NCBI GenBank assembly: GCA_964030785.1
Contig: OZ034975.1
Span: 36,581,369 to 36,645,368, forward strand
Direction of reading: 5' to 3'
Origin: Siderastrea siderea
Taxonomy: Eukaryota > Cnidaria > Anthozoa > Scleractinia > Rhizangiidae
DNA: 64,000 nt
The position numbers were made by a program, and so were the translations under genes. Shown piece by piece: positions 51,020-63,407 of this stretch (position 1 is its first letter; every line of letters begins with the position of its first letter). The notes beneath the pieces are model-generated. The model saw nothing but the letters and a program-made list of their open reading frames with translations. It was not told where the DNA came from and made no database searches.

Positions 51020-52649
51020 TATCTTTCCTTATGAGAAAGGATTAATTCTGTATTTGTAACTAATTTTATTTATAAAGTCACAGATTAATAATGAATCATT
51101 CTGGAGTTTCCTTCTGTAAATGTAATGGCACAGAAACAGCAGAGTGTAATTTGGGTTTTCCTTCATTACATTGGTTGCAGTTAGGAGACCAAATAAAATT
51201 TCCTCAGTCCGGGATTGAACGTGGAATTGCCGTGGGTTGCATTAAACCATTGCAACACTTCCTGAGTGAAAGAGATTGTAAATTGACAATTTATAAAACT
51301 GTGATCGATATAGTCGGCTTCGCCGCAGTAAAAACAATCACTGCCTTCGTTAATTTTAAATCTAAAAAGTTCCTTTCTGGTCACAATAGTTCTGTGAATA
51401 AATTTGAAATGAAACTCGCGTAAATTATTTTCGTGGCAAGTCCCACAAATTGAGCGAAAGAGTTTCCTTCCAGGTACTTTTATCAGAACTAATGGATCTC
51501 TCCCATCGTTTAGGACCGGAGTGGGGATTTGTGTGGGTTTTGTTCAGAAGTAGCCAGTTGAAGTCTTTTGACTTTGCTCTCAATACGTTTATAGTATTAC
51601 TTTCATCCAGAGCAAAGCATGTTAAATCCTCATCCCCAGGAACGTTTACAGAAAATATCATTTCTCTAGCTTTCACTAGAAGATGATTCGGAATAGCACT
51701 GATAACCTGATAGAAATGGAGAAAGCTGGTCTTCCTTAAGTGGTATTTAGATTTATAATCAACGAATGAAAGAATGTTTCCCTCGTCTAAAAGGTCCGAA
51801 ATCGTTCTAATTCCTTGACTAAACCATTCTTGGAAAAAGAAAGGTTTTGCTCCAACTAATATCTCTCTATTATTATAGAGAATCATACCTTGATAGCCTT
51901 TATTGCCGAACTGGTTTTTCAGTTCATCAAAGAACAGTAAAATGTCTGTAAAACCGTGGCAGATATTCGAAATCCTTCATTCGATAGTTGCAAGTTAGTA
52001 GAGAACCGAGACCACCTTCCTTTTTAAAGAGAACGTCGGGGACTGTCTTCCAGTTGAATTGACCACTTTTAAAGAGTCTAGAAATCCATGCTAATCGCAG
52101 TGCTTTGATGATAAGTTCAAAATCAACCATGCGCAATCCACCTTTTTCATAGTCCTGATGTAATCCCGACCTTTTAATCTTATCTTTTTTTGTTCCACAA
52201 AATTTTAAAAAGTCGACCTTGGACATTACGTACGACTTCTCTTGGTACATCCGTGTTATAAGCTGAGTACACCAGCGGCGACACACCTAGTGCCTTAATA
52301 ATTAATTCTTTACCGAACAATGTCAAGTCCCTCGCTCTCCACAGGTCTAAACTTGTTTGGAGTTTTTGGATTTTAAGGTCAAAGTTATTTTTATTGTTAC
52401 CTTGGATATCATAAGAAAGGAAAATTCTAAGCATTCTGGTATGATCCTTTACCCATGTTAGATTAAATGATTGGTCTTTCTGGTTAGCTAAATCGCCTAG
52501 CCACATAGCCTTAGTCTTTTTGATGTTTAGCATGAGCCCTGAAACTTCGCCGAAGGACCCAGTTAAATGCAAGGCATTTTCCAGTGGTACGCCCGCACAG
52601 AATAAATTGGTGTCATCAGCAAACTGGCTCCATTTTATTTCATTTTGAA
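51020..52649 (-). pseudogene. L1/Tx1-like LINE ORF2, C-terminal half
   Basis: On - from 52649 downwards: IKWSQFADDTNLFCAG is the reverse-transcriptase catalytic FADD box (usual YADD), then the thumb region (RARDLTLFGKELIIKAL, KGGLRMVDFE), connector, and a C-terminal Cys/His segment DCFYCGEADYIDHSFINC. Frames shift near 52230, 51910, 51400 and 51185, so the copy is dead. The upstream palm region continues at 63408-63900 on the far side of the inserted transposon. Confidence 0.8.
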
Positions 52650-52658
52650 ACAAAGAGA
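52650..52658. other. Left 9-bp target-site duplication ACAAAGAGA
   Basis: An identical copy lies at 63399-63407. The sequence belongs to the LINE reading frame. Confidence 0.9.
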
Positions 52659-52805
52659 TAGCCTGAATTTCAGCTGTCTCCTGTGGTCGCTCACTCCCGA
52701 GAGAGACGTCTGAATCAATGAGCCGCTAATGCCGTCCAGTGACGTCACTGTCCAAAAACCAGACAGCGGTGTTGATTGGCTGATTCTCAATTATTCGCAT
52801 AAATT

Positions 52806-53352
52806 ATGTCTTTAATTATCCAAAGTGCGATGAATGTTTACAAAATGGTGGTCGCAGGGATTCCACTTTGTGCGAAAGCTTTCAAAGAAGCAGTATCGTA
52901 TGTTTGTGCAATGTTGGGGTTAACTAAGTTATATCCCGAACAGGAAAACGCTCTCTTTCACTTCCTGTCCAGGGAAAATGTTTTCGTTAATCTTCCGACG
53001 AGCTATGGGAAATCTATGATTTCCAGATTGCACCACTTGTTGCAAGTGAACTCTCCAAATCTTGTACACAATTTGAAGCAGGCTGTATCATTATTGTCAT
53101 TTCTCCCTTGGTTGCTCTCATGAATGACCAAGTTGCTTCTCTTCAGAAGTGCAATATCGCAGCAGCGTCTGTTTTTTCAGAACAAGATGCAGAGGTTCTG
53201 AACGATGTGGAGAACGGAAAGTTTAGCATCGTTTACGCTTCCTCGGAATCCATGCTCTCCGTTAGTCGGTGGAGGAGAATGCTGTCAACTGAGACGTACA
53301 AAAAACGGCTTATAGGAATTGCAGTAGACGAAGCTCACTGTATTTCTCACTG
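52806..53352 (+). pseudogene. RecQ-like DNA helicase, exon 1 (frameshifted)
   Basis: Starts at an ATG about 60 bp inside the left TIR. TKLYPEQENALFHFL is the Q-motif region; LPTSYGKSMI is Walker A with Ser in place of the usual Gly. Immediately after it, at 53019-53022, one base is missing: the next frame reads FQIAPLVASELS, then VISPLVALMNDQVASLQ (motif Ia) and IAVDEAHCISHW (DEAH box, motif II). The donor ACTG/GTATGT at 53353 splits the Trp codon and joins in phase to 55372. 3'-5' DNA unwinding is the family role. A one-base loss could be a sequencing error. Confidence 0.8.
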
Positions 53353-53628
53353 GTATGTTGCAGTTGTCTTGTTGTATAATAGATCAGTCTAGGACAAATC
53401 AAAGAGTCAACCAAAATAAGTTGGGAACTGACCGTAATTCAAAGATTTTTCATCCCAAGGGAAACGAGTTAAATGAAACCTTGCTACGAAACTTCACAGA
53501 ACTTTATACAGTTCAATTTTAGTTGCAAGAGTTTGGTGAGTTGAAATCCCCTGATTAATTAATAGATGCTGATCACTATTGAGAACATTTCATAGTTGAT
53601 TACTACTAGGCTTAATTCTTAATAAGTT

Positions 53629-53702
<74 letters not shown>

Positions 53703-55371
53703 ATATATATTTATTAAAGACTGGACTAGGTATATTGGATTTCTACCATTCTGATAGGCTGAACGGAGCCAGGCTATCAGCTCATATACCTGCTGTGACC
53801 AAATATGGACAATGAACACTCAACAACAAAATGAACAAAGTGAGCTGGAAGTTTTTTCCTCGCCAGCAATCCGGCGAGAAAAATAGACAAGAAAAATCAC
53901 TTGGCAGCGAATTTGAATTAAGCAGAAATTCCAACAGCGTCACTAACAGCGTCGTCTAACACAAGTCAAAATTGTTTGAAGAAACTGTGCAGAAAAAGAA
54001 ATTAGAAATTTAAGCATTGAGCGTTGTGTTTACAATTAATTTCTTTCATCGATCGTCACGTCGATCATTACAATTGAACAAACGGTAGGTTTTATCAGGA
54101 AGCCTTTCCACTTCAAAATATCAAGACAAGACAAAATAAAACACAGTGAAATGGAGCAGAAGCATTTAATAACAACTGTCACACATTCATGACGATTCGG
54201 TGCGAAAATCATGAAGCAGTCTAAACAAGTAAACAAACTACAGCTGCAAACTACCAAGAAGGCCGCAGGAAGGGCGAAAATGTTTTTCGGCCTTAGCACG
54301 CAAAATTGACACTGGTTTACCTGCACTCGTTGTAGCTCTGTGTTCCAACAGGTCCAAATGCTGAGATAGAAATCGGATGCCATGTAAACGGAGTTAAATC
54401 GCTTTTCCAGTTGTTTGAATGTTGTTTTTACCATTCCGTCCGCAACCTCTAAACCGAGAACAACTGCATTTTGTGCTTTGCATTAAACAAACTATGATGG
54501 TGAATTCTAATGTTCCTCGCTACAGTAATCTTGCTTCTGAGCTGCATAAAAATTACACTTCTTCAATTTCAAATTGGTTCTGTCTTCATTTCGATCAAAC
54601 ACGCACATGATGGCTCCGTTGTGCGAACAGATTACAAACTTGTTCTGTTTCAACTCCAGCAGCTAATATGGTGAAATTGTACAGCTTCAATCCGCTTTGA
54701 ACGATGTTTCCGGAAAAATCAAACATGTACCATATTTCAGAGCCAATGATTAGAAGATTTTTTTCCCAAACTTGTGCCACTTCGTTCACTTTCGAGCAGT
54801 TTTCATTGATTCATTCAGCTTTGCAATGAAACGCTGCAACACTTCGCAAGGTTTTGGCGCCTTTTTCGTTCAGTCATGTGATCGATTCTTGCTCCCTTTT
54901 TATCCCTTTCTCATTTTTCTCTTTCTTTCTTGATTTTTTTAACAAAAATAGTAGTTAAGTTTTTAATAAAACAATTATTCTACTCGGGCTTGCTGGATAT
55001 CAAATGATTATAACCAACTCGGCGCTACGCGCCTCGTTGGTTATCTATCATTTCATATCCAGCGCGCCCTCGTAGAATAATTGTTAAATATATAGTTATT
55101 TGTTTTCTGTTAACACTAAAAAATTGCTGCTTTACTAAAAATGCAGTCCTCCTGAACGTAATTTTGCTATATAGCATACTCTATAGTATACTCTATGTGT
55201 TTGTGTAGTTGATGGAAATGACCATACTCCCCCTGGGAAAGGTCATGGAAAATATAAAGCTAAATTGGAATTCCACAAGGGGTGGGGGTGTTTAAACCAG
55301 CATCCCTTTTGTGGGAAAGGTATGAATATTTTCTGAAACAACACTATGAGCTATTTATTTTCTTTATGAAG
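53353..55371. other. RecQ intron filled with repeat
   Basis: A GT/AG intron. It contains a TA microsatellite (53634-53710) and a dispersed repeat from about 53715 to 55085 that ends in a hairpin. A 132-codon - strand frame at 54036-54434 lies wholly within the repeat and is not treated as a gene. Confidence 0.65.
54969..55085. repeat. Hairpin end of dispersed repeat
   Basis: AACAATTATTCTACTCGGG to CCCTCGTAGAATAATTGTT, arms of about 56 bp, centre GGCGCTACGCGCC. Same type as 26649-26763. Confidence 0.75.
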
Positions 55372-56179
55372 GGGACTCACTGGAAATGTTGGTAATGTGG
55401 CATTCAGAAAGTGGTATTCTTCCTTGAGTGAATTGCGTTCCCTAATTCCAGGTGGCTTGCCTTTTATTGCACTGACAGCTACTGCTTCCAAGAAAACAAA
55501 GAACGAGATCTGGAAAGTTCTGGAGTTTACTTCCCCTTATAAAGTAGTAGAAAGTCCAGACCATCAAAATATTGCTTATGTATCCCAGCACATAGACAGT
55601 GGACAAGAAGTTAACAATTATTTCGGGTGGCTGGTTGAGGCAGTTAAGGAAAATGGAGAGAATACTGAGAGGGTTTTGATATACTGCCAGACAGTAAAAC
55701 AATGCGCTAGTCTATATCAGCTGTTTGCCAATGAACTTTCAGAATTAATGTATTCTGACAAGTCTTTTGATCCAAGGAAACGACTGGTGGAAATGCTTCA
55801 CTCCAAGACATCTGCATCACTTAAAAATACTGTACTAGATTCTTTTTCAAGGGAAAATGGCCACACCAGAGTCCTGATCGCCACTGTTGCATTTGGGATG
55901 GGAGTTAATACTAAAGGAGTGCGAACTGCCATTCATGTGGGTCCACCCAAGAACTTGGAGGCTTATGTCCAGGAAAGTGGCAGATGTGGTAGGGATGGCG
56001 AGCGAAGTCGTGCTGTAATTCTGTTCAACAGCAAACTGTCTGTGCATGCAGATAATGACATGAAGGAATACTTGCTTTCAGATGAATGTAGAAGAAAGTT
56101 CCTCCGCCAGCCATTTGACTCTAGTAAGCAAACTAACACTTCACAGGGTGCTTTAATTGCTCACTTATGCTGGAAATGA
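55372..56179 (+). pseudogene. RecQ-like DNA helicase, exon 2 (helicase C lobe)
   Basis: Completes the Trp codon of exon 1 and runs open for 268 codons. Motif III ALTATASKK; motif IV RVLIYCQTVKQC; motif V RVLIATVAFGMGVNTKG; motif VI AYVQESGRCGRDGE (usual QExGRAGRDG; Cys replaces Ala). The zinc-binding cysteine cluster expected after the helicase core is missing: the frame reads GALIAHLCWK and stops. The tail that should follow is in another frame at 56163-56390, so a deletion removed the cluster. Overall family: RecQ-like helicases strongly expanded in cnidarians. Confidence 0.85.
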
Positions 56180-56390
56180 TGAAAGTGATGTGACTGAAGA
56201 TGATGATGACAGTTATGAAGAGTTGTTGCAGCTTCAGCAGGATAACTCATTTCTGGAAATGGTGGAATCAGGCCTCTTTAATTCACTAGAAGAAAATGAA
56301 CTAATGGATGACATTGATGAGAATGCAAATGTAGCAAATTACCCATCACCTCTGGACTTAGTTATACCAAATGTTTTGAGGGATGAATAG
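56163..56390 (+). pseudogene. RecQ-like C-terminal acidic tail, out of frame
   Basis: Reads YAGNDESDVTEDDDDSYEEL and ends NVLRDE then stop at 56390. Acidic, probably disordered. It follows the helicase exon with a one-base offset after the presumed zinc-cluster deletion. Confidence 0.6.
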
Positions 56391-56545
56391 CTTTTTATGG
56401 CCAAGTGAGGTCGTTTCGGTCTTTCACTAGTGATTCCTCCTTTTTTGACAGGTAGAGGGGTTAGTGGATCTCCTACCCAAAGGGTTTTAAAGGAACCCCC
56501 TAGAGGTAAAATGAATAACCCCAGTCACACTTTTTGTGGGAGTGC

Positions 56546-56573
56546 CCCCAACCCTAACCCTAACCCTAACCCC

Positions 56574-56621
<48 letters not shown>

Positions 56622-56626
56622 GCTTC
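56546..56626. repeat. Interstitial telomere-like (CCCTAA)4, C run and AC repeat
   Basis: AACCCTAACCCTAACCCTAA at about 56549-56570, then about 20 C, then an AC microsatellite. TTAGGG is the cnidarian telomere unit. Confidence 0.85.
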
Positions 56627-56703
56627 TCACATCTAAATAAAATTTTTTTCAGGGCTTGGCTTCATTAGTATTTGCACCAAATGTTTTAAGGGAGGATTTC
56701 ACC

Positions 56704-56878
56704 TTATTCCAAAATAGCGGGAAATACATTGTTCTTTTGTCTCCATGTTAATTGGCCCTTGTTGCCTCATTTTAAGCCAAATATTCCTTTGAATTCTGCA
56801 TACGGGATCGAGGCAACAAGGGCTAATTAACAATGATACAAAAGAACATTGTATTTTTCGCCATTTTGGAATAATGTG
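56704..56878. repeat. Foldback between the convergent helicase and DUF6589 genes
   Basis: About 65-bp arms: TTATTCCAAAATAGCGGGAA to TTGTTGCCTC at left and GAGGCAACAAGG to CATTTTGGAATAA at right, with a 43-bp loop. It lies in the intergenic space where both transcripts end. Confidence 0.8.
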
Positions 56879-57335
56879 TATACAGCCGTATGAAATCTTT
56901 TAGGCTGTTCCGTAGCCATTCCTTCTTTTCTTTTCTGGTGGGTGGGAGAATCTCCCATATAAAAGTTATGGCATGATCATCAGATTTTTTTTTTAAAGAA
57001 ACCCTTCAATAAAAATTATGATGATCACCCCAGTCACACTTTTTTCCTCACAGCATAAGAAAGACAACACCTACCGTAACTATTTACCAATGCATGTATA
57101 CAATGTAATGTTGCTCTCAATGTTTTTTGTTGGCTGACATATTGGTAGAAATAGAAGACAGGTTTTTGCATTGAAAGCAGTAGGGGTATTTCACTAGTAT
57201 CTCACTCAGATGAATAGTACAACTCTTTTCACAGGTTGAAAGTACCCATACAGTTCAGGAGAACAGATGAACTGCTTAGTACATAAACTAATGTATCGAT
57301 AAAAAGGAACATTAAAGTGTTTTATGGGGCCTATT

Positions 57336-58373
57336 TTAGCGTGCCCTTCTATTGAACAGGATATATTTCTTGTGATTGTCAATCCACAGTGAAGACATAT
57401 CAATTTCACTGGTCTGACTTCGCTGAAATGCTGCGTAATGTTTGTACTCTCGTCCTGGGGTTTCAATTAAGGCACCTTCACTGAGCAAGAGGTTTACTAG
57501 GATTCTGAGGTCCTCTCCATCTGACTTCTGAACATGCTTTCCAGACCTCTTTCTTATTTTACATTCTAAGTCATATTGTTCAATAATTTCCCTGGCAACC
57601 TTGCAACAATGGCAATTTCTAGTGACTGCGGTTGTTGTTAGGTTTCTGCCCATCTTCTTGTTTCCTTCTTTGATGTAATTGTTGTCATGTTCTAAGTCCA
57701 AGTGTAATGGAACATTACACCCAGCTACGCCATGATTATTTACTGATCTGTTCCACACAAGCTGGTGTGCTTCACAGGGGGTCAGAAGGGCATGAATCTG
57801 GAATAAAAGGTAAAGGGCTTCAAGGGCATACTTTGACTTTCTTGACTCCTGCCAAAACTGAATAAGTAAAAACTTCCAGCAACGGATAATCCTTGCACCA
57901 TCACCCTCAGCTACTGCATCCCTGAAGTTAAGATATAGCAAGCCATGGTCAAGTAGAGAACATTGGTAATTGAATATGTCATCGCTTGACTTGTTTGGTT
58001 CCTTAGCCTTTGTAGTTTGGGCTGTATCCTTAGCTTCCATAAATGCTTCACTAGAAAGTTCTGCATGATCTCCATGAGTCAGTTCATGTTTCCTCCTTGA
58101 TTTTCCATCGAAGCGAAATGACTTGTGACAGCCAGGAACGCGGCATGGGTAACGACCATCAGCTGCCTGTGCTTGGTTCTTTTGCACCTCCTCTTGTTCC
58201 TCCTCTGACAGTATCTGATTCAACAGTGAGTTCACTGACGAGGAATCTATGACATACGTGTCAACAACTTTTGCTGCAATAGCTCGCAGGTACACTCTTT
58301 GGGTAGCTTCTGATGCTGTTGGCAAACTCATGCAGTGGGAATGTGTTTCGGGTTGGTTTACCACTGATGTCAC
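57336..58373 (-). CDS. DUF6589 protein, C-terminal exon with C2H2 zinc finger
   Basis: 345 codons without a break. RYPCRVPGCHKSFRFDGK with RRKHELTH is a C2H2 finger (residues about 74-98). Then the DUF6589 C-terminal block: DDIFNYQCSLLDHGLLYLNF, RIIRCWKFLLIQFWQ, VWNRSVNNHGVAGCNVPL, HLDLEHDNNYIKEG (conserved acidic DLEH, a candidate catalytic Glu). A Cys-His pair CHCC lies near residue 254. It is the 3' end of the - strand gene whose other exons lie at 59.2-63.2 kb. DUF6589 is known to me only as a domain of unknown function in cnidarians and fungi; transposase role is inference from its position between TIRs. Confidence 0.7.
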   Translation of the reverse strand: MTSVVNQPETHSHCMSLPTASEATQRVYLRAIAAKVVDTYVIDSSSVNSLLNQILSEEEQEEVQKNQAQAADGRYPCRVPGCHKSFRFDGKSRRKHELTHGDHAELSSEAFMEAKDTAQTTKAKEPNKSSDDIFNYQCSLLDHGLLYLNFRDAVAEGDGARIIRCWKFLLIQFWQESRKSKYALEALYLLFQIHALLTPCEAHQLVWNRSVNNHGVAGCNVPLHLDLEHDNNYIKEGNKKMGRNLTTTAVTRNCHCCKVAREIIEQYDLECKIRKRSGKHVQKSDGEDLRILVNLLLSEGALIETPGREYKHYAAFQRSQTSEIDMSSLWIDNHKKYILFNRRAR

Positions 58374-59164
58374 TCATACCAAGAATTTCCAAAGCTGCTA
58401 CAACAATTCGTGCCTTCACTGCTAAGTGAACATTGCCCTATCTGGAGAATAAGCACTTGTGACATCACTTTCCACGTTTCTGCGGTTTATGTTGCTTCTG
58501 TCACAAGACAATGTGCATTTGTCTCCTCCAGATTCTGAAGAATAATGTCTCTTGAAACATAGCTGGAGAGATATAAGACAAATATGCATTTATATTTTTT
58601 TATTTTATTAACCTGGTGTTGTAATGCTGGAATACTACAAAAGGTAACTGGTGGGTTCCTTTGCTTTACTATGGCACTCAAACGCAAAAACAAGAAGAAT
58701 TCCAGTCTCGATATGAACCAGAACTACAAAAAAAGCCATCACAGCAAGGGCATTTAAATTTCCGCATGACATTAGAGTTAAAGTTTTCACATTAGATTTT
58801 CACTGAAACCATTCAATGGAAATATTAGGGAAAATAAGAATGACACTGGCTAAAACAAATGAATTTTCCCCACTCTTATAGAGCATTTAATAGTATAATT
58901 TTGGTTTTCTCAATTATCACAGCCGGCATGCCTCATGACTGATACATTGAGATTACAAGAAGAAATTATTTGTTGATCATTGTTGGGGTTGAGGGGTTAC
59001 ACAGCTGCTGATGGATCAGAAAATACATTCAGTGTTTCAGGAAATTATGTTTACATGTAAAATGCCACCTTTGCCAGACACCCTCTTTTCCAATGGATAT
59101 TACTTCTGAATTGAAGTTTACCTCTAGGAAATTCATATCCGCATGCCAGTCTGCAATTCCAATG
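58374..59164. other. Intronic interval of the DUF6589 gene
   Basis: No exon recognised. A short - strand frame at 58487-58693 lacks similarity. Confidence 0.45.
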
Positions 59165-59265
59165 TTTAACCCCGTCATTCTTTCCTCTTATGTGCCATTA
59201 ATGCATTCACCGCCCTGTCAACTGTGAGTTGATCTCCAATGACATTGGCAGAAACAAAATGCTGA
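59165..59265 (-). CDS. DUF6589 gene, GDQLT-motif exon
   Basis: On -, the frame reads FVSANVIGDQLTVDRAVNAL then MAHKRKE. GDQLT is the hallmark of DUF6589 as I know it, and its Asp is a likely catalytic or metal-binding residue. Exact splice borders are not fixed. Confidence 0.65.
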
Positions 59266-59719
59266 TCCTTTCCTTCCCCTTCACTTGGTAGATAAGAATG
59301 GATCCTCTTCAACACATTTTATTAGCATGCCTTCTCTTGTGTTTTCATTTTCAAAAATAATACCAAGACAAGCCTGCCAAGGCAAGGGTATAATAGGTGT
59401 ATGTTACTTTTGATTGAAGAAGTAATAAACACTTGCAACTGAACTCTTGGGGGGGGGGGAGGGGGAGGGCTAAAGGGAGAGTTTACATGAGTATTTTGAA
59501 TTATATAATTCTATCATTTCCTGGTTTCATAAAAAGGGTATAGATTTCCACTTCACCCTATTATAGACAGTACACAGGTGTTTTCAGTTAACAGGAATTT
59601 ATTGTCCCCATCCTTTTGTTGCAGTATGACCTTGCAACTGCCAAAATGATATCACTGTCAAACACATATTGCCAGCATTGAAAACACACCCCTACCCCAA
59701 GATGGATTAAATACAACTC

Positions 59720-60058
59720 CACCCCCCTCCCCCAGGATGAATACATTTGTACAAAGTAAAGAAGTATCTTTTTGGTACGTTGTGCCATTTCCTTACTGTA
59801 CTTGTGGGGAATGTGTTTCTGGACAGCGCCCTTCAGGAACCTCAATGCAGGAATACAATCAACAAGAACCCTTTGAACCAGGACAATATAGTTTTCTCCG
59901 TTGTTTAAATGATCCCTTGCCTGTGGTAGAACAGAGCTATTAGATAAGTCATTTAAATCACATGCAGGCTTGTCATTGTCTAAGTGAGCTCCTGTCACTC
60001 TGTTCAGGACACAATTGTGGATTGTCCAGTGGTAATCCTTGTTTGGTTCTCACAAGTC
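59720..60058 (-). pseudogene. DUF6589 gene, middle exon 3' of the Penelope insertion
   Basis: Reads NKDYHWTIHNCVLNRVTG, LPQARDHLNNGENYIVLVQR and CIPALRFLKGAVQKHIPHK. It is the continuation of the 60736-61104 exon, cut by the insertion at 60070-60724 and offset by at least one indel just inside. The 3' border is unclear. Confidence 0.6.
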
Positions 60059-60069
60059 ATGTCTCTAAC

Positions 60070-60724
60070 AAAAATATATATTAAAAAAATATAAAAAATT
60101 TCTCACTTAATGAGTTAAGAGTGCCTAAAAATCGTATAAAATTCCATACGTTTCGGGCTCAGCCCTTCTTCAGTGGAAAGTCAAGATTTCAGTTAAAAAA
60201 CGCTGTCTTGCGCCATATAAGACAAATTTGAGTTCAATAGGCGCGCGCGCGAAAAGAGCGCGCGACAACCTAAAGATATCGAAAATCTGAGTTTAAACCG
60301 TGTGGCTGACTGGTGCCCAGCTTGAAAATTAGGCGCATTTCCTGGCGTTTGCGTAGTTTATTTCCGCCGCAGAGCATGACCCCACGGACTTGTGCGTCTT
60401 GCAGGGTATGTCCGTTGGCATTAAAATGCTCTGCGACAGGAAATCCAGGCAGGTTTTTCTCGATACTGCGAAGATGCTCGCCGAAGCGTTCTCTCAGTGT
60501 CCGGCCTGTTTCACCGATGTAGACGGCGGAGCAACGGCGGCAAGAGATGGCATATACCAAGCCAGATGATTTACAGGTGAATGCATCCTTGATGTTGAAA
60601 GAGCATTGGGGACCTTGTAGGGTGCTGTCACGAGAAATGTAATCGCATGTGCGACAGCGGTTGTGGGTGCAAGGAGAGGTTCCCACGTGAGGACCAGGTT
60701 GGTTTCGGTCAGCGGTGTGCACTA
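60070..60724 (-). mobile_element. Penelope-like retroelement fragment, 5'-truncated
   Basis: ATGTCTCTAAC is duplicated at 60059-60069 and 60725-60735 (11 bp), which are the two halves of a DUF6589 codon stretch. The insert carries the end of a Penelope ORF with GIY-YIG endonuclease and a CTGAAGAAGGGCTGAG-containing 3' region. Confidence 0.85.
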
Positions 60725-60737
60725 ATGTCTCTAACAT
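60270..60737 (-). pseudogene. GIY-YIG endonuclease end of a Penelope-like ORF
   Basis: HNRCRTCDYISRDS (CxxC zinc part), GLVYAISCRRCSAVYIGETG (GIY-YIG core as GLVYAI...VYIGETG) with RTLRERFGEHLRSI, VAEHFNANGH and the conserved Glu in KRQEMRLIFKLGT. It ends at a stop. The reverse-transcriptase part is missing because of 5' truncation; the first codons derive from the junction. Confidence 0.85.
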
Positions 60738-61104
60738 CCTGCCTCAAATCAAAGTTGTCTATTACAAACTGCATCCCACTGATGGACATATGATCAAGTG
60801 CCTTGATTTCATCTTCGACTTCCTTTATTTGACTATTCATGGTCATGGCCTGTTGGTCCTGCACTGTGGGTGATGATGGAGCTGAAACAATACTTTCAGG
60901 AATTTCACAAGTGGACGCTTTAGCCAGTGCAAGTACCTCTTCTTTCTTGAGTTTTAATTCAGCTTTTTTCTTCATGCATGCAGAAACCCTGTCTTTCTCT
61001 TCCAACACTAGCTCATCAAACTTGTTTCCATACTCATCAAGCTTTTTCAGAAATGTTGAGTTGGAAACAGTAACCTTTAATGCTGAAAGTCTTGGATGAA
61101 GGGC
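60736..61104 (-). CDS. DUF6589 gene, coiled-coil and IDN-motif exon
   Basis: The acceptor CCTAATGCAG opens ALHPRLSALKVTVSNSTFLK, followed by a lysine/glutamate helix (KKKAELKLKKEEVLALAK) likely to form a coiled coil, then MQFVIDNFDLRQDVRDI, the IDNxD motif of DUF6589 and another candidate acidic catalytic site. It is interrupted at its 3' end by the Penelope fragment. Confidence 0.65.
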
Positions 61105-61304
61105 CTGCATTAGGATAAAGCACATGGTCCATACAGAATAATAAATAATTATTGCAATGTTGATCAAGCATTATTGTGGGTCAAAATAGAATTTCTCAAA
61201 ACCGGTTTTTGTTTTTTAATCTGTAATAGTTTCCATCACAATCATTACATTAAACATTGGTCATCCTTGGGACTTAATCAGTAGGGATAATATTGAAAGT
61301 AGCA

Positions 61305-61309
<5 letters not shown>

Positions 61310-61353
<44 letters not shown>
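61310..61353. repeat. (GAT)n microsatellite
   Basis: About 14 GAT units, intronic. Confidence 0.95.
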
Positions 61354-61354
<1 letters not shown>

Positions 61355-61779
61355 AGTATTGCTAAATACACTCATAACTTTACATAATGATTTATTGGCT
61401 AATGTCAGTAAATTAGTTGTGTTACGTTGGCAGAATACCAGAAGGGTAAACTTAACACTGTGTAGTGCAAAAAGGAGCAGATCCAACATTTTGTAAAGAG
61501 GGGACTGTAAGCATGTAGTTTAGGTAGGCATTAGGTCAGGTATACAGTGCAAGTATGTTACAGAACTGCTTTTAGTGTCACAGTGATGGCTCACACACTA
61601 AAATAAAATAAAAAACAATTAAACTGCTATTTACCTGTGAACCACTGAACTTCATTATCAGAGACATCAAGATCTGAGCTGCATTAAGAAAACGGGATCG
61701 CTCCCTGAGAAGAATCCAGCCAGCCAATGCAACACTTGGCAAAGAAGTTGTAAGTTTATCATTGCTTCTCCCTTGTCAA

Positions 61780-62105
61780 AATACACTAGTCAACAATGTA
61801 ATGTAAAGCAAAGGGGCCCTTGCCATCAGTTCATGACACACATTTTCAAGCTTAAACTTCCTCATATCCTCCATTGAGTTTTTCCTCAAAATACTTGGAT
61901 TTTTCTTGCTTGTCAACTCAGCACATTCTCTGGAAATCTCTTTAAAAAAACACTGTATGACACTTTGTCTCAGAGGTGCCATTTTAAAAATAGCATTGGC
62001 CATTTGGGAGTAAGTTCCTCGCACAAGGGCTATTCCAAGCCCTGCAAACTTGTCGTTTAACACTCGCACTCTTGCATATTCCTCGCTTGGCCACTTGACA
62101 CTGAC
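61780..62105 (-). CDS. DUF6589 gene, N-terminal helical exon
   Basis: The acceptor TTATAAAAG opens VSVKWPSEEYARVRVLND, then GTYSQMANAIFKMAPLR and NSMEDMRKFKLENVCHELM. The pattern (WPS, then a GTY block, then a leucine-rich helix) is what I know from cnidarian DUF6589 proteins. The 3' border is uncertain. Confidence 0.6.
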
Positions 62106-62654
62106 CTTTTATAAAATAAAACAATAAATAAACAATTATTTTTACATTTAATTGTGGCCTTTTGTGCAATGTTGCACGAAGAGGAGTTCTTCAATTAATT
62201 TTATAAGCTTACACACGTTTTGCAAATAAGTCTTACGTATAACGCAAACAATACAACATAGGCTAGATCGATCAGTGAACGAGCTGGTTGCTTTTTATAT
62301 GTAACTTCTATATAACTTTGTCACAGTAAAACATACACGCATTGCATCCAAACAGAAAAAACAACAGAGGGAAATACACAAACAGAAAAAGAGAGAACTT
62401 TTTCAAAGTCAGTACCGTTTCAATTTGTCCCAACCCGAACGCTTGGTAGCTCAGGTAGCCAAAAAAAATTAAATGTATATTTAAATGCGATGTCTATACG
62501 ACAGATTTATAGAAATAGTCTTTAATATAAAAGCAAACTGGTGTTATCAAGTTTGGGCTTAATTTAAGCTTATAAGTTTAACACACTCTTAAAATTCATT
62601 GACCTGCAAAAGATCTCGGGCAAAAGAAGATGGCTACCACAAAACGTTCTTACC

Positions 62655-62955
62655 TTTACTACTCTTTCTGGTTTTTCAGGTTTTCTTTCCGTTAAGCGAA
62701 GAGGAGGCGGCCGACCAGCTTTCTTCGGCGTGCTAGTCATTGGAAGGGGCGAAGGAAAAATCGTTCTGGTGGACGGAAACTCGGGGACGTTGTATAAACA
62801 GCTTGAACTTAAGCTTACGCTTAACTTGGTCCCATCAATTTCAACACACGGTTTTTTCATAATTGGGCTATCCAAGTCGCTTTCCGCAGTATTATCTCTT
62901 TTCAGAGAAGGCCCATACATAGTACTTCTAATATCTTCAGCACTTTTAGTCTGGT
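62655..62955 (-). CDS. DUF6589 gene, proline-rich linker exon
   Basis: Reads STMYGPSLKRDNTAESDL, MKKPCVEIDGTKLSVS and TSTPKKAGRPPPLRLTERKP, probably disordered linker with an AT-hook-like GRPPP. The donor follows GTGGTAAA/GTAAGA near 62655. Codon phase relative to the upstream zinc-binding part is broken. Confidence 0.5.
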
Positions 62956-63212
62956 TTTAGCGAATTCTTCTGTGTTTTTCAACTTTTCGTCTACAAACTC
63001 TGCAGAGGTAGCCATTGCTATCGAAAGACACGTTCAACAATTTCATCAGGCAACCAAGTCGAAGATACACCTTTCCCAGATATGGCATATCGATCTGTGG
63101 CTTCGGAAAGCGCTTTTGCACAGATTACACACTTCACCGAACGGCTTTGTTTAATTGTCGCGATGAAAGACATAACAGAGAAGCAAAACAAAAGGTACTT
63201 GACCCTTGCCAT
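62956..63212 (-). pseudogene. DUF6589 gene, N-terminal zinc-binding segment with indels
   Basis: Reads SVKCVICAKALSEATDRY, GVSSTWLPDEIVERV, and after a one-base insertion FDSNGYLCRVCRRKVEK: two CxxC pairs that would form a zinc-binding module. A further shift precedes KNTEEFAKTRLKVLK. At least two indels break the N terminus. The start lies about 100 bp inside the right TIR. Confidence 0.6.
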
Positions 63213-63398
63213 CGAGCGACGGGCGTGCGTCTATCATATCGAGGGCGACAAAAGCTGAATTTTTTTGCGGGAACAGAAATGATCCGCATAAATTAACATT
63301 GATTCGCCGTGACGTCACTGGACGGCATTAGCGGCTCATTGATTCAGACGTCTCTCTCGGGAGTGAGCGACCAGAGGAGACGGCTGAAATTCAGGCTA

Positions 63399-63407
63399 AC
63401 AAAGAGA
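63399..63407. other. Right 9-bp target-site duplication ACAAAGAGA
   Basis: Identical to 52650-52658. Confidence 0.9.

Follow-up and report, generated by a model that had tools for sequence, protein, structure and literature searches.

Structure of the element in the window

We analysed a 64,000-nucleotide stretch of the Siderastrea siderea genome (assembly GCA_964030785.1, contig OZ034975.1, positions 36,581,369-36,645,368), referred to here as the window, whose own coordinates are used throughout. Positions 52659-63398 of the window are occupied by a DNA element bounded by terminal inverted repeats (TIRs), the interior of which carries a RecQ-like helicase gene on the + strand and a gene of the DUF6589 family on the - strand. 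The TIRs are 90 nt each and 98% complementary, with two mismatches, and the element is flanked on both sides by a perfect 9-bp duplication, ACAAAGAGA; when pairs of 9-mers were drawn at random from the window, the two were identical in 5 of 200,000 draws. Gene models made from the sequence by comparison with another copy in the same genome (L014) gave several exons for each gene and a convergent arrangement. An original prediction for this DNA had described the 90-bp repeats and their mismatches, the perfect duplication and the two convergent multi-exon genes, and all of these features were confirmed, with both genes broken in the window copy (Table 1).

The window copy is a dead transposon: each gene carries frameshifts, the helicase gene has a 404-bp deletion and the DUF6589 gene is interrupted by a nested Penelope-like insertion. 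On the + strand, Pfam signals for DEAD and Helicase_C mark the helicase. Its first exon is frameshifted around residues 65-71, and its second, compared to copies L009, L010 and L014, has lost 404 bp at approximately 56169 between GCTG microhomologies, a segment that includes the RecQ-type zinc part. The helicase frame is open in L009, L010, L013 and L014. The L014 helicase, modelled from sequence as 648 amino acids in two exons, passes the cut-off of the NCBI RecQ family TIGR00614 (246 bits against 219.8), and its best match among solved structures is human WRN (157 bits). The insertion of about 1.39 kb in the helicase intron is present in L010 and absent from L009, L013 and L014; it carries a 39-nt inverted repeat (54970-55008 and 55047-55085). 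The 10.7-kb length of the window element includes both this insertion and the nested one; L009 measures 9055 bp and L014 9187 bp.

The last DUF6589 exon of the window matches PF20231 over 57336-58373 on the - strand (91 bits, E 8.6e-26). In L014 both genes are open and the element is flanked by GTCACAACG. The DUF6589 protein of that copy, again a model from sequence, has 1066 amino acids encoded by five exons, all with GT-AG introns in phase 0, and covers positions 12-410 of the 410 in PF20231 (173 bits). In the window gene, exon 1 (CxxC...CxxC) appears ZAD-like from a fold match of the homologous N-terminus of a related protein, and exon 3 holds an IDNFD motif (D codon 60757-60759). Exon 4 holds GDQLT (D codon 59232-59234) and ADWH (H codon 59143-59145), and the last exon a C2H2-like motif (C codon 58143-58145) and LDLEH (D 57696-57698, E 57690-57692). 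The nested fragment in exon 3 is bracketed by a target duplication of its own, the 11-bp ATGTCTCTAAC (60059-60069 and 60725-60735); the corresponding site is empty in L009.

Table 1. Features of the transposon copy, in window coordinates
Feature	Position	Strand	Evidence and remarks
Target-site duplication, left copy, ACAAAGAGA	52650..52658		Flank comparison
Left TIR, 90 bp	52659..52748	+	Inverted-repeat match; counting this end, 40 related ends scored in the genome among 186 candidates
Helicase exon 1 (DEAD part)	52830..53353	+	tblastn of L014 helicase (bounds from tblastn); Pfam DEAD
Insertion in helicase intron, ~1.39 kb	53695..55085		Beside a (TA)n run; bounds approximate
Helicase exon 2 (Helicase_C, C-terminus)	55373..56387	+	Pfam; tblastn; copy comparison
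DUF6589 last exon	57336..58568	-	Pfam, tblastn; upper bound within a few codons; frameshifted
DUF6589 exon 4	59110..59376	-	tblastn; frameshifted
DUF6589 exon 3	59750..61125	-	Bounds within a few codons; split by nested insertion
Nested Penelope-like (GIY-YIG) fragment in exon 3	60059..60735	-	GIY-YIG Pfam; copy comparison
DUF6589 exon 2	61632..62108	-	tblastn; bounds within a few codons
DUF6589 exon 1 (CxxC...CxxC)	62651..63212	-	tblastn; frameshifted near residue 58
Right TIR, 90 bp	63309..63398	-	Inverted-repeat match
Target-site duplication, right copy, ACAAAGAGA	63399..63407		Flank comparison

The stretch between the two genes contains an inverted repeat (56700-56878) whose 69-nt arms are 87% complementary and separated by 41 nt. 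To the left of the element, open frames on the - strand at 51927-52725 resemble by eye parts of a reverse transcriptase of the type without long terminal repeats, and a long interspersed nuclear element may surround or adjoin the transposon.

Further copies and a second family

The genome (831 Mb, 402 contigs) was searched with the left end of the element, and 40 places of 186 candidates were scored, so that the copy counts given here are lower bounds. These 40 comprised the window, 20 places inspected at 10 kb and 19 at 1 kb. At least six were long copies (the window, L009, L010, L013, L014 and L031), and in all six the helicase and DUF6589 genes were both present and converged in the same way. 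For L010 and L013 the right end either lay beyond the stretch obtained or was not located, and residues 1-135 of the L013 DUF6589 protein lie outside the sequence covered. The 200-bp left flank was 99.5% identical to that of the window in L010 and 95% identical in L009, the right flank of L009 was 99% identical over 602 bp, and the flanking letters of L031 were the same as those of the window over the short stretches read. Judging from these flanks, the four long copies on contig 10 (the window, L009, L010 and L031) seem to be duplicates of one insertion, which leaves three independent long insertion sites.

Target duplications were compared at 13 distinct sites for which both ends were recovered and aligned. 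Nine had a 9-bp duplication, one had a 10-bp duplication, one had a 9-bp duplication with one mismatch and two had none. At a short copy beyond these sites (L023, near 1995), the right TIR is missing its last 8 or 9 bp, and a 9-bp duplication nevertheless abuts the shortened end. Two other copies, L021 and L022, have a common left flank and a shortened right end.

A genome search using the protein encoded by the DUF6589 exon scored 117 of 356 candidates and yielded at least 119 matches. The six best, with 91-100% identity, were the six long TIR copies, and an extra fragment at 86% was part of L013. A degraded locus (C1:41245279) was 62% identical, with short pieces up to 80%. Many other matches were 27-52% identical to the window protein and included several sets of near-identical score, which suggests that several DUF6589 lineages may have been active recently.

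A second DUF6589 group, at 41% identity, was represented by seven copies of near-equal score among the matches scored. The two that were compared (L051+L053 and L052+L054) are 99.5% identical over approximately 9.18 kb, have TIRs of about 96 bp and are flanked by the 9-bp duplications CCTTAAATA and GCTGCCTGA. In this family, too, the DUF6589 and helicase genes lie on opposite strands and converge; in one of the two copies, helicase exon 1 contains a stop. Compared to the L014 proteins, identity was 32-42% for DUF6589 and 40-42% for the helicase, and the helicases of the two families matched each other with 456 bits. The second-family TIR starts with TAGCCTG, as does that of the window, and a gapped local alignment of the two scored 37, whereas 300 letter shuffles reached 29 at most. 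Since both families share the convergent pair and the 9-bp duplications, the pairing is old, and the retention of the pair together with the match between the helicases makes it most likely that helicase and transposase diverged together. The helicase had been predicted to be a stable partner rather than a passenger, and its presence in all six long copies and in the second family supports this.

DUF6589 as a putative DDE transposase

DUF6589 (PF20231) is described in Pfam as a family of unknown function, and public annotation gives its homologues names such as "uncharacterized protein". Homologues were found in the cnidarians Oculina, Dendronephthya, Montipora, Porites and Desmophyllum and in the fungi Exidia and Auricularia. 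Starting from a fungal protein, a profile search recovered only five proteins, all of them fungal and one of them the seed itself. These searches scored only the candidates sharing most words and gave few fungal matches, so the taxonomic range is thinly sampled.

The predicted structures point to a transposase. AlphaFold models of two homologues have an RNase H-like core in which the conserved D of FDNxD, D of GDQL and E of LDLxLE occupy the positions expected of DDE transposases, and a helical insertion precedes the last E. The best fold matches among solved structures were the P-element, Hermes, ISCth4, Transib and RAG1, with best Foldseek E-values of 0.03 and 0.014 for the two models and none at or below 0.001. 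A profile of DUF6589 alignment A3 compared to solved chains recovered no transposase, only two zinc-finger proteins and one glycopeptidase at E 0.0068 or worse. The link to transposases therefore comes from the fold and the conserved residues, and these models support the earlier proposal that DUF6589 is a DDE transposase. In the D421 column of the alignment, a single row, P0127 from Montipora foliosa, lacked the D, and its N-terminus is apparently misassembled. The gene model of P0127 joins an unrelated N-terminal part (PF08344) to a DUF6589 C-terminus and may be a chimera produced when the annotation extended into a transposon.

The predicted fold and the helical insertion are shared with hAT (Hermes), P element, Transib/RAG1 and Mutator/IS256-type (ISCth4) transposases, but none of these was matched at the sequence level by the DUF6589 profile. 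The hAT and P elements make 8-bp target duplications and Transib 5-bp ones. Membership of the hAT or P group was rejected, as the duplications here are 9 bp (rarely 10) and the similarity is one of fold.

Selection on the two genes was assessed from dN/dS, the ratio of nonsynonymous to synonymous substitution rates. Among the open helicase copies L009, L010, L013 and L014, two of which (L009 and L010) stem by duplication from a single insertion, the ratio was 0.39-0.50 in five of the six pairs and 0.11 for L013-L014, a pair with seven changes only. For DUF6589, L014 gave 0.54 against L013 and 1.20 against the broken gene of L010, the latter with one of five segments dropped for unequal lengths. 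Comparisons of L014 with these two close copies do not show constraint on DUF6589, and the case for constraint rests on its conservation across species.

Classification, alternatives and proposed mechanism

Helitrons lack TIRs and target duplications, and the presence of both here led us to reject that class. Kolobok duplications are TTAA, whereas those found here are 9 bp of varied sequence, and KolobokH was rejected as well. In PMC9587614, KolobokH and Kolobok-1_CCri of a red alga combine a DDE transposase with a RecQ helicase, which in Kolobok-1_CCri is on the complementary strand, as in the window element.

Taken together, our results make it very probable that the window element is an inactive copy of an AcademH-type two-gene DNA transposon, with DUF6589 as its DDE transposase and the helicase as a co-inherited accessory. 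AcademH elements have TIRs, as do the window element, its copies and the second family. The AcademH lineage of Academ DNA transposons was reportedly defined by Kojima in 2020 (Mob DNA 11:15). According to an excerpt of PMC10045372, these elements encode a helicase and make 9- or 10-bp target duplications, and the title of the defining paper cited there places them in animals and fungi; a section of PMC10799480 reports them from Basidiomycota, Ascomycota and Mucoromycota. The window element agrees in its helicase (of the RecQ family), in its duplications (9 bp at nine and 10 bp at one of the 13 sites) and in the occurrence of DUF6589 homologues in cnidarians and in Exidia and Auricularia, the linkage of the helicase to DUF6589 being established within the Siderastrea siderea genome. 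No tested feature differed, the comparison being one of reported features and not of transposase sequence, gene order or TIR sequence; the AcademH label probably applies on this basis, rather than from reference Academ sequences.

The same elements could instead form a separate superfamily that resembles AcademH only in its helicase and 9-bp duplications. The AcademH link does rest on reported features and not on sequence, and DUF6589 was not found in the literature searched, the coverage of which is incomplete; in the portions of text searched, PF20231 occurred only in a nanophotonics paper, and Academ, XPG and transposon did not occur together. Three features nevertheless agree with what the excerpts report for AcademH (helicase, 9- or 10-bp duplications, and animals plus fungi), and we consider a separate superfamily unlikely. 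A Mutator-like element (MULE) with a captured helicase would share the long TIRs and 9-bp duplications of the window element, both of which are Mutator traits, and ISCth4, a relative of Mutator transposases, is among the fold matches. However, at E <= 0.01 Pfam recognised only PF20231 in the 1066-amino-acid protein, with no MULE model, and the helicase is common to the distant second family and thus not a recent capture, which together make this explanation very improbable.

Three observations qualify the reading as a DUF6589/helicase transposon. At 31 of the 40 scored places (16 at 10 kb and 15 at 1 kb), similarity that starts at the left end runs no further than about position 475-550, and neither gene is seen in the fetched stretch; L015, in the 10-kb set, also shows no right end, and for L032, L039 and L040 the 1-kb stretch is too short to class them as long or gene-less. 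The pair also occurs with clearly different TIRs in the second family, and a third DUF6589 locus, L055, has only a C-terminal piece of helicase, in the same orientation, within 10 kb, a stretch in which no matching TIRs were recognised. The original prediction had itself named TIR copies lacking a gene, and pairs lacking these TIRs, as counting against it, and taken literally both were found; its expectation that full copies carry the convergent pair held for all six. A lack of both genes is usual among non-autonomous derivatives of such elements, and we read the second family as part of a wider lineage with the same convergent pair. That both genes are passengers, moved with these TIRs in trans by an unrelated transposase as the gene-less copies must have been, is extremely unlikely given the same pair in all six copies with long internal similarity and in a family with different TIRs, and the predicted transposase fold of DUF6589.

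For the AcademH-type transposon that we favour, the ZAD-like N-terminal zinc domain of the DUF6589 protein would probably dimerise or position it. The RNase H-like core, with its D/D/E residues and a helical insertion as in hAT, P and RAG1, would cut the approximately 90-bp TIRs and attach the ends to target DNA at points roughly 9 bp from each other, so that duplications of 9 bp, or rarely 10 bp, result. The helicase would probably open the duplex at the element ends or at the insertion product while this is still gapped. More tentatively, all DUF6589 proteins might constitute the transposase family of helicase-type Academ elements, with cnidarian and fungal DUF6589 genes being mobile or domesticated, and with RecQ acting in strand transfer and setting the 9-bp stagger in place of the nuclease of the other Academ lineage.

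Within the limits of computation, the mechanism and the pairing first proposed are supported and came through most of the checks suggested with them. The novelty claimed for them was mostly overstated, as AcademH has been published before: the helicase-bearing element type is most likely known, and what may be new is equating DUF6589 with its transposase. A Pfam family with many copies in this genome would thereby acquire a function that can be tested. The proteins of the two families being only about 32-42% identical, the association of a RecQ helicase with a probable DDE transposase is shown to be long-standing, and a single two-gene element makes the role of the helicase in such transposition testable.
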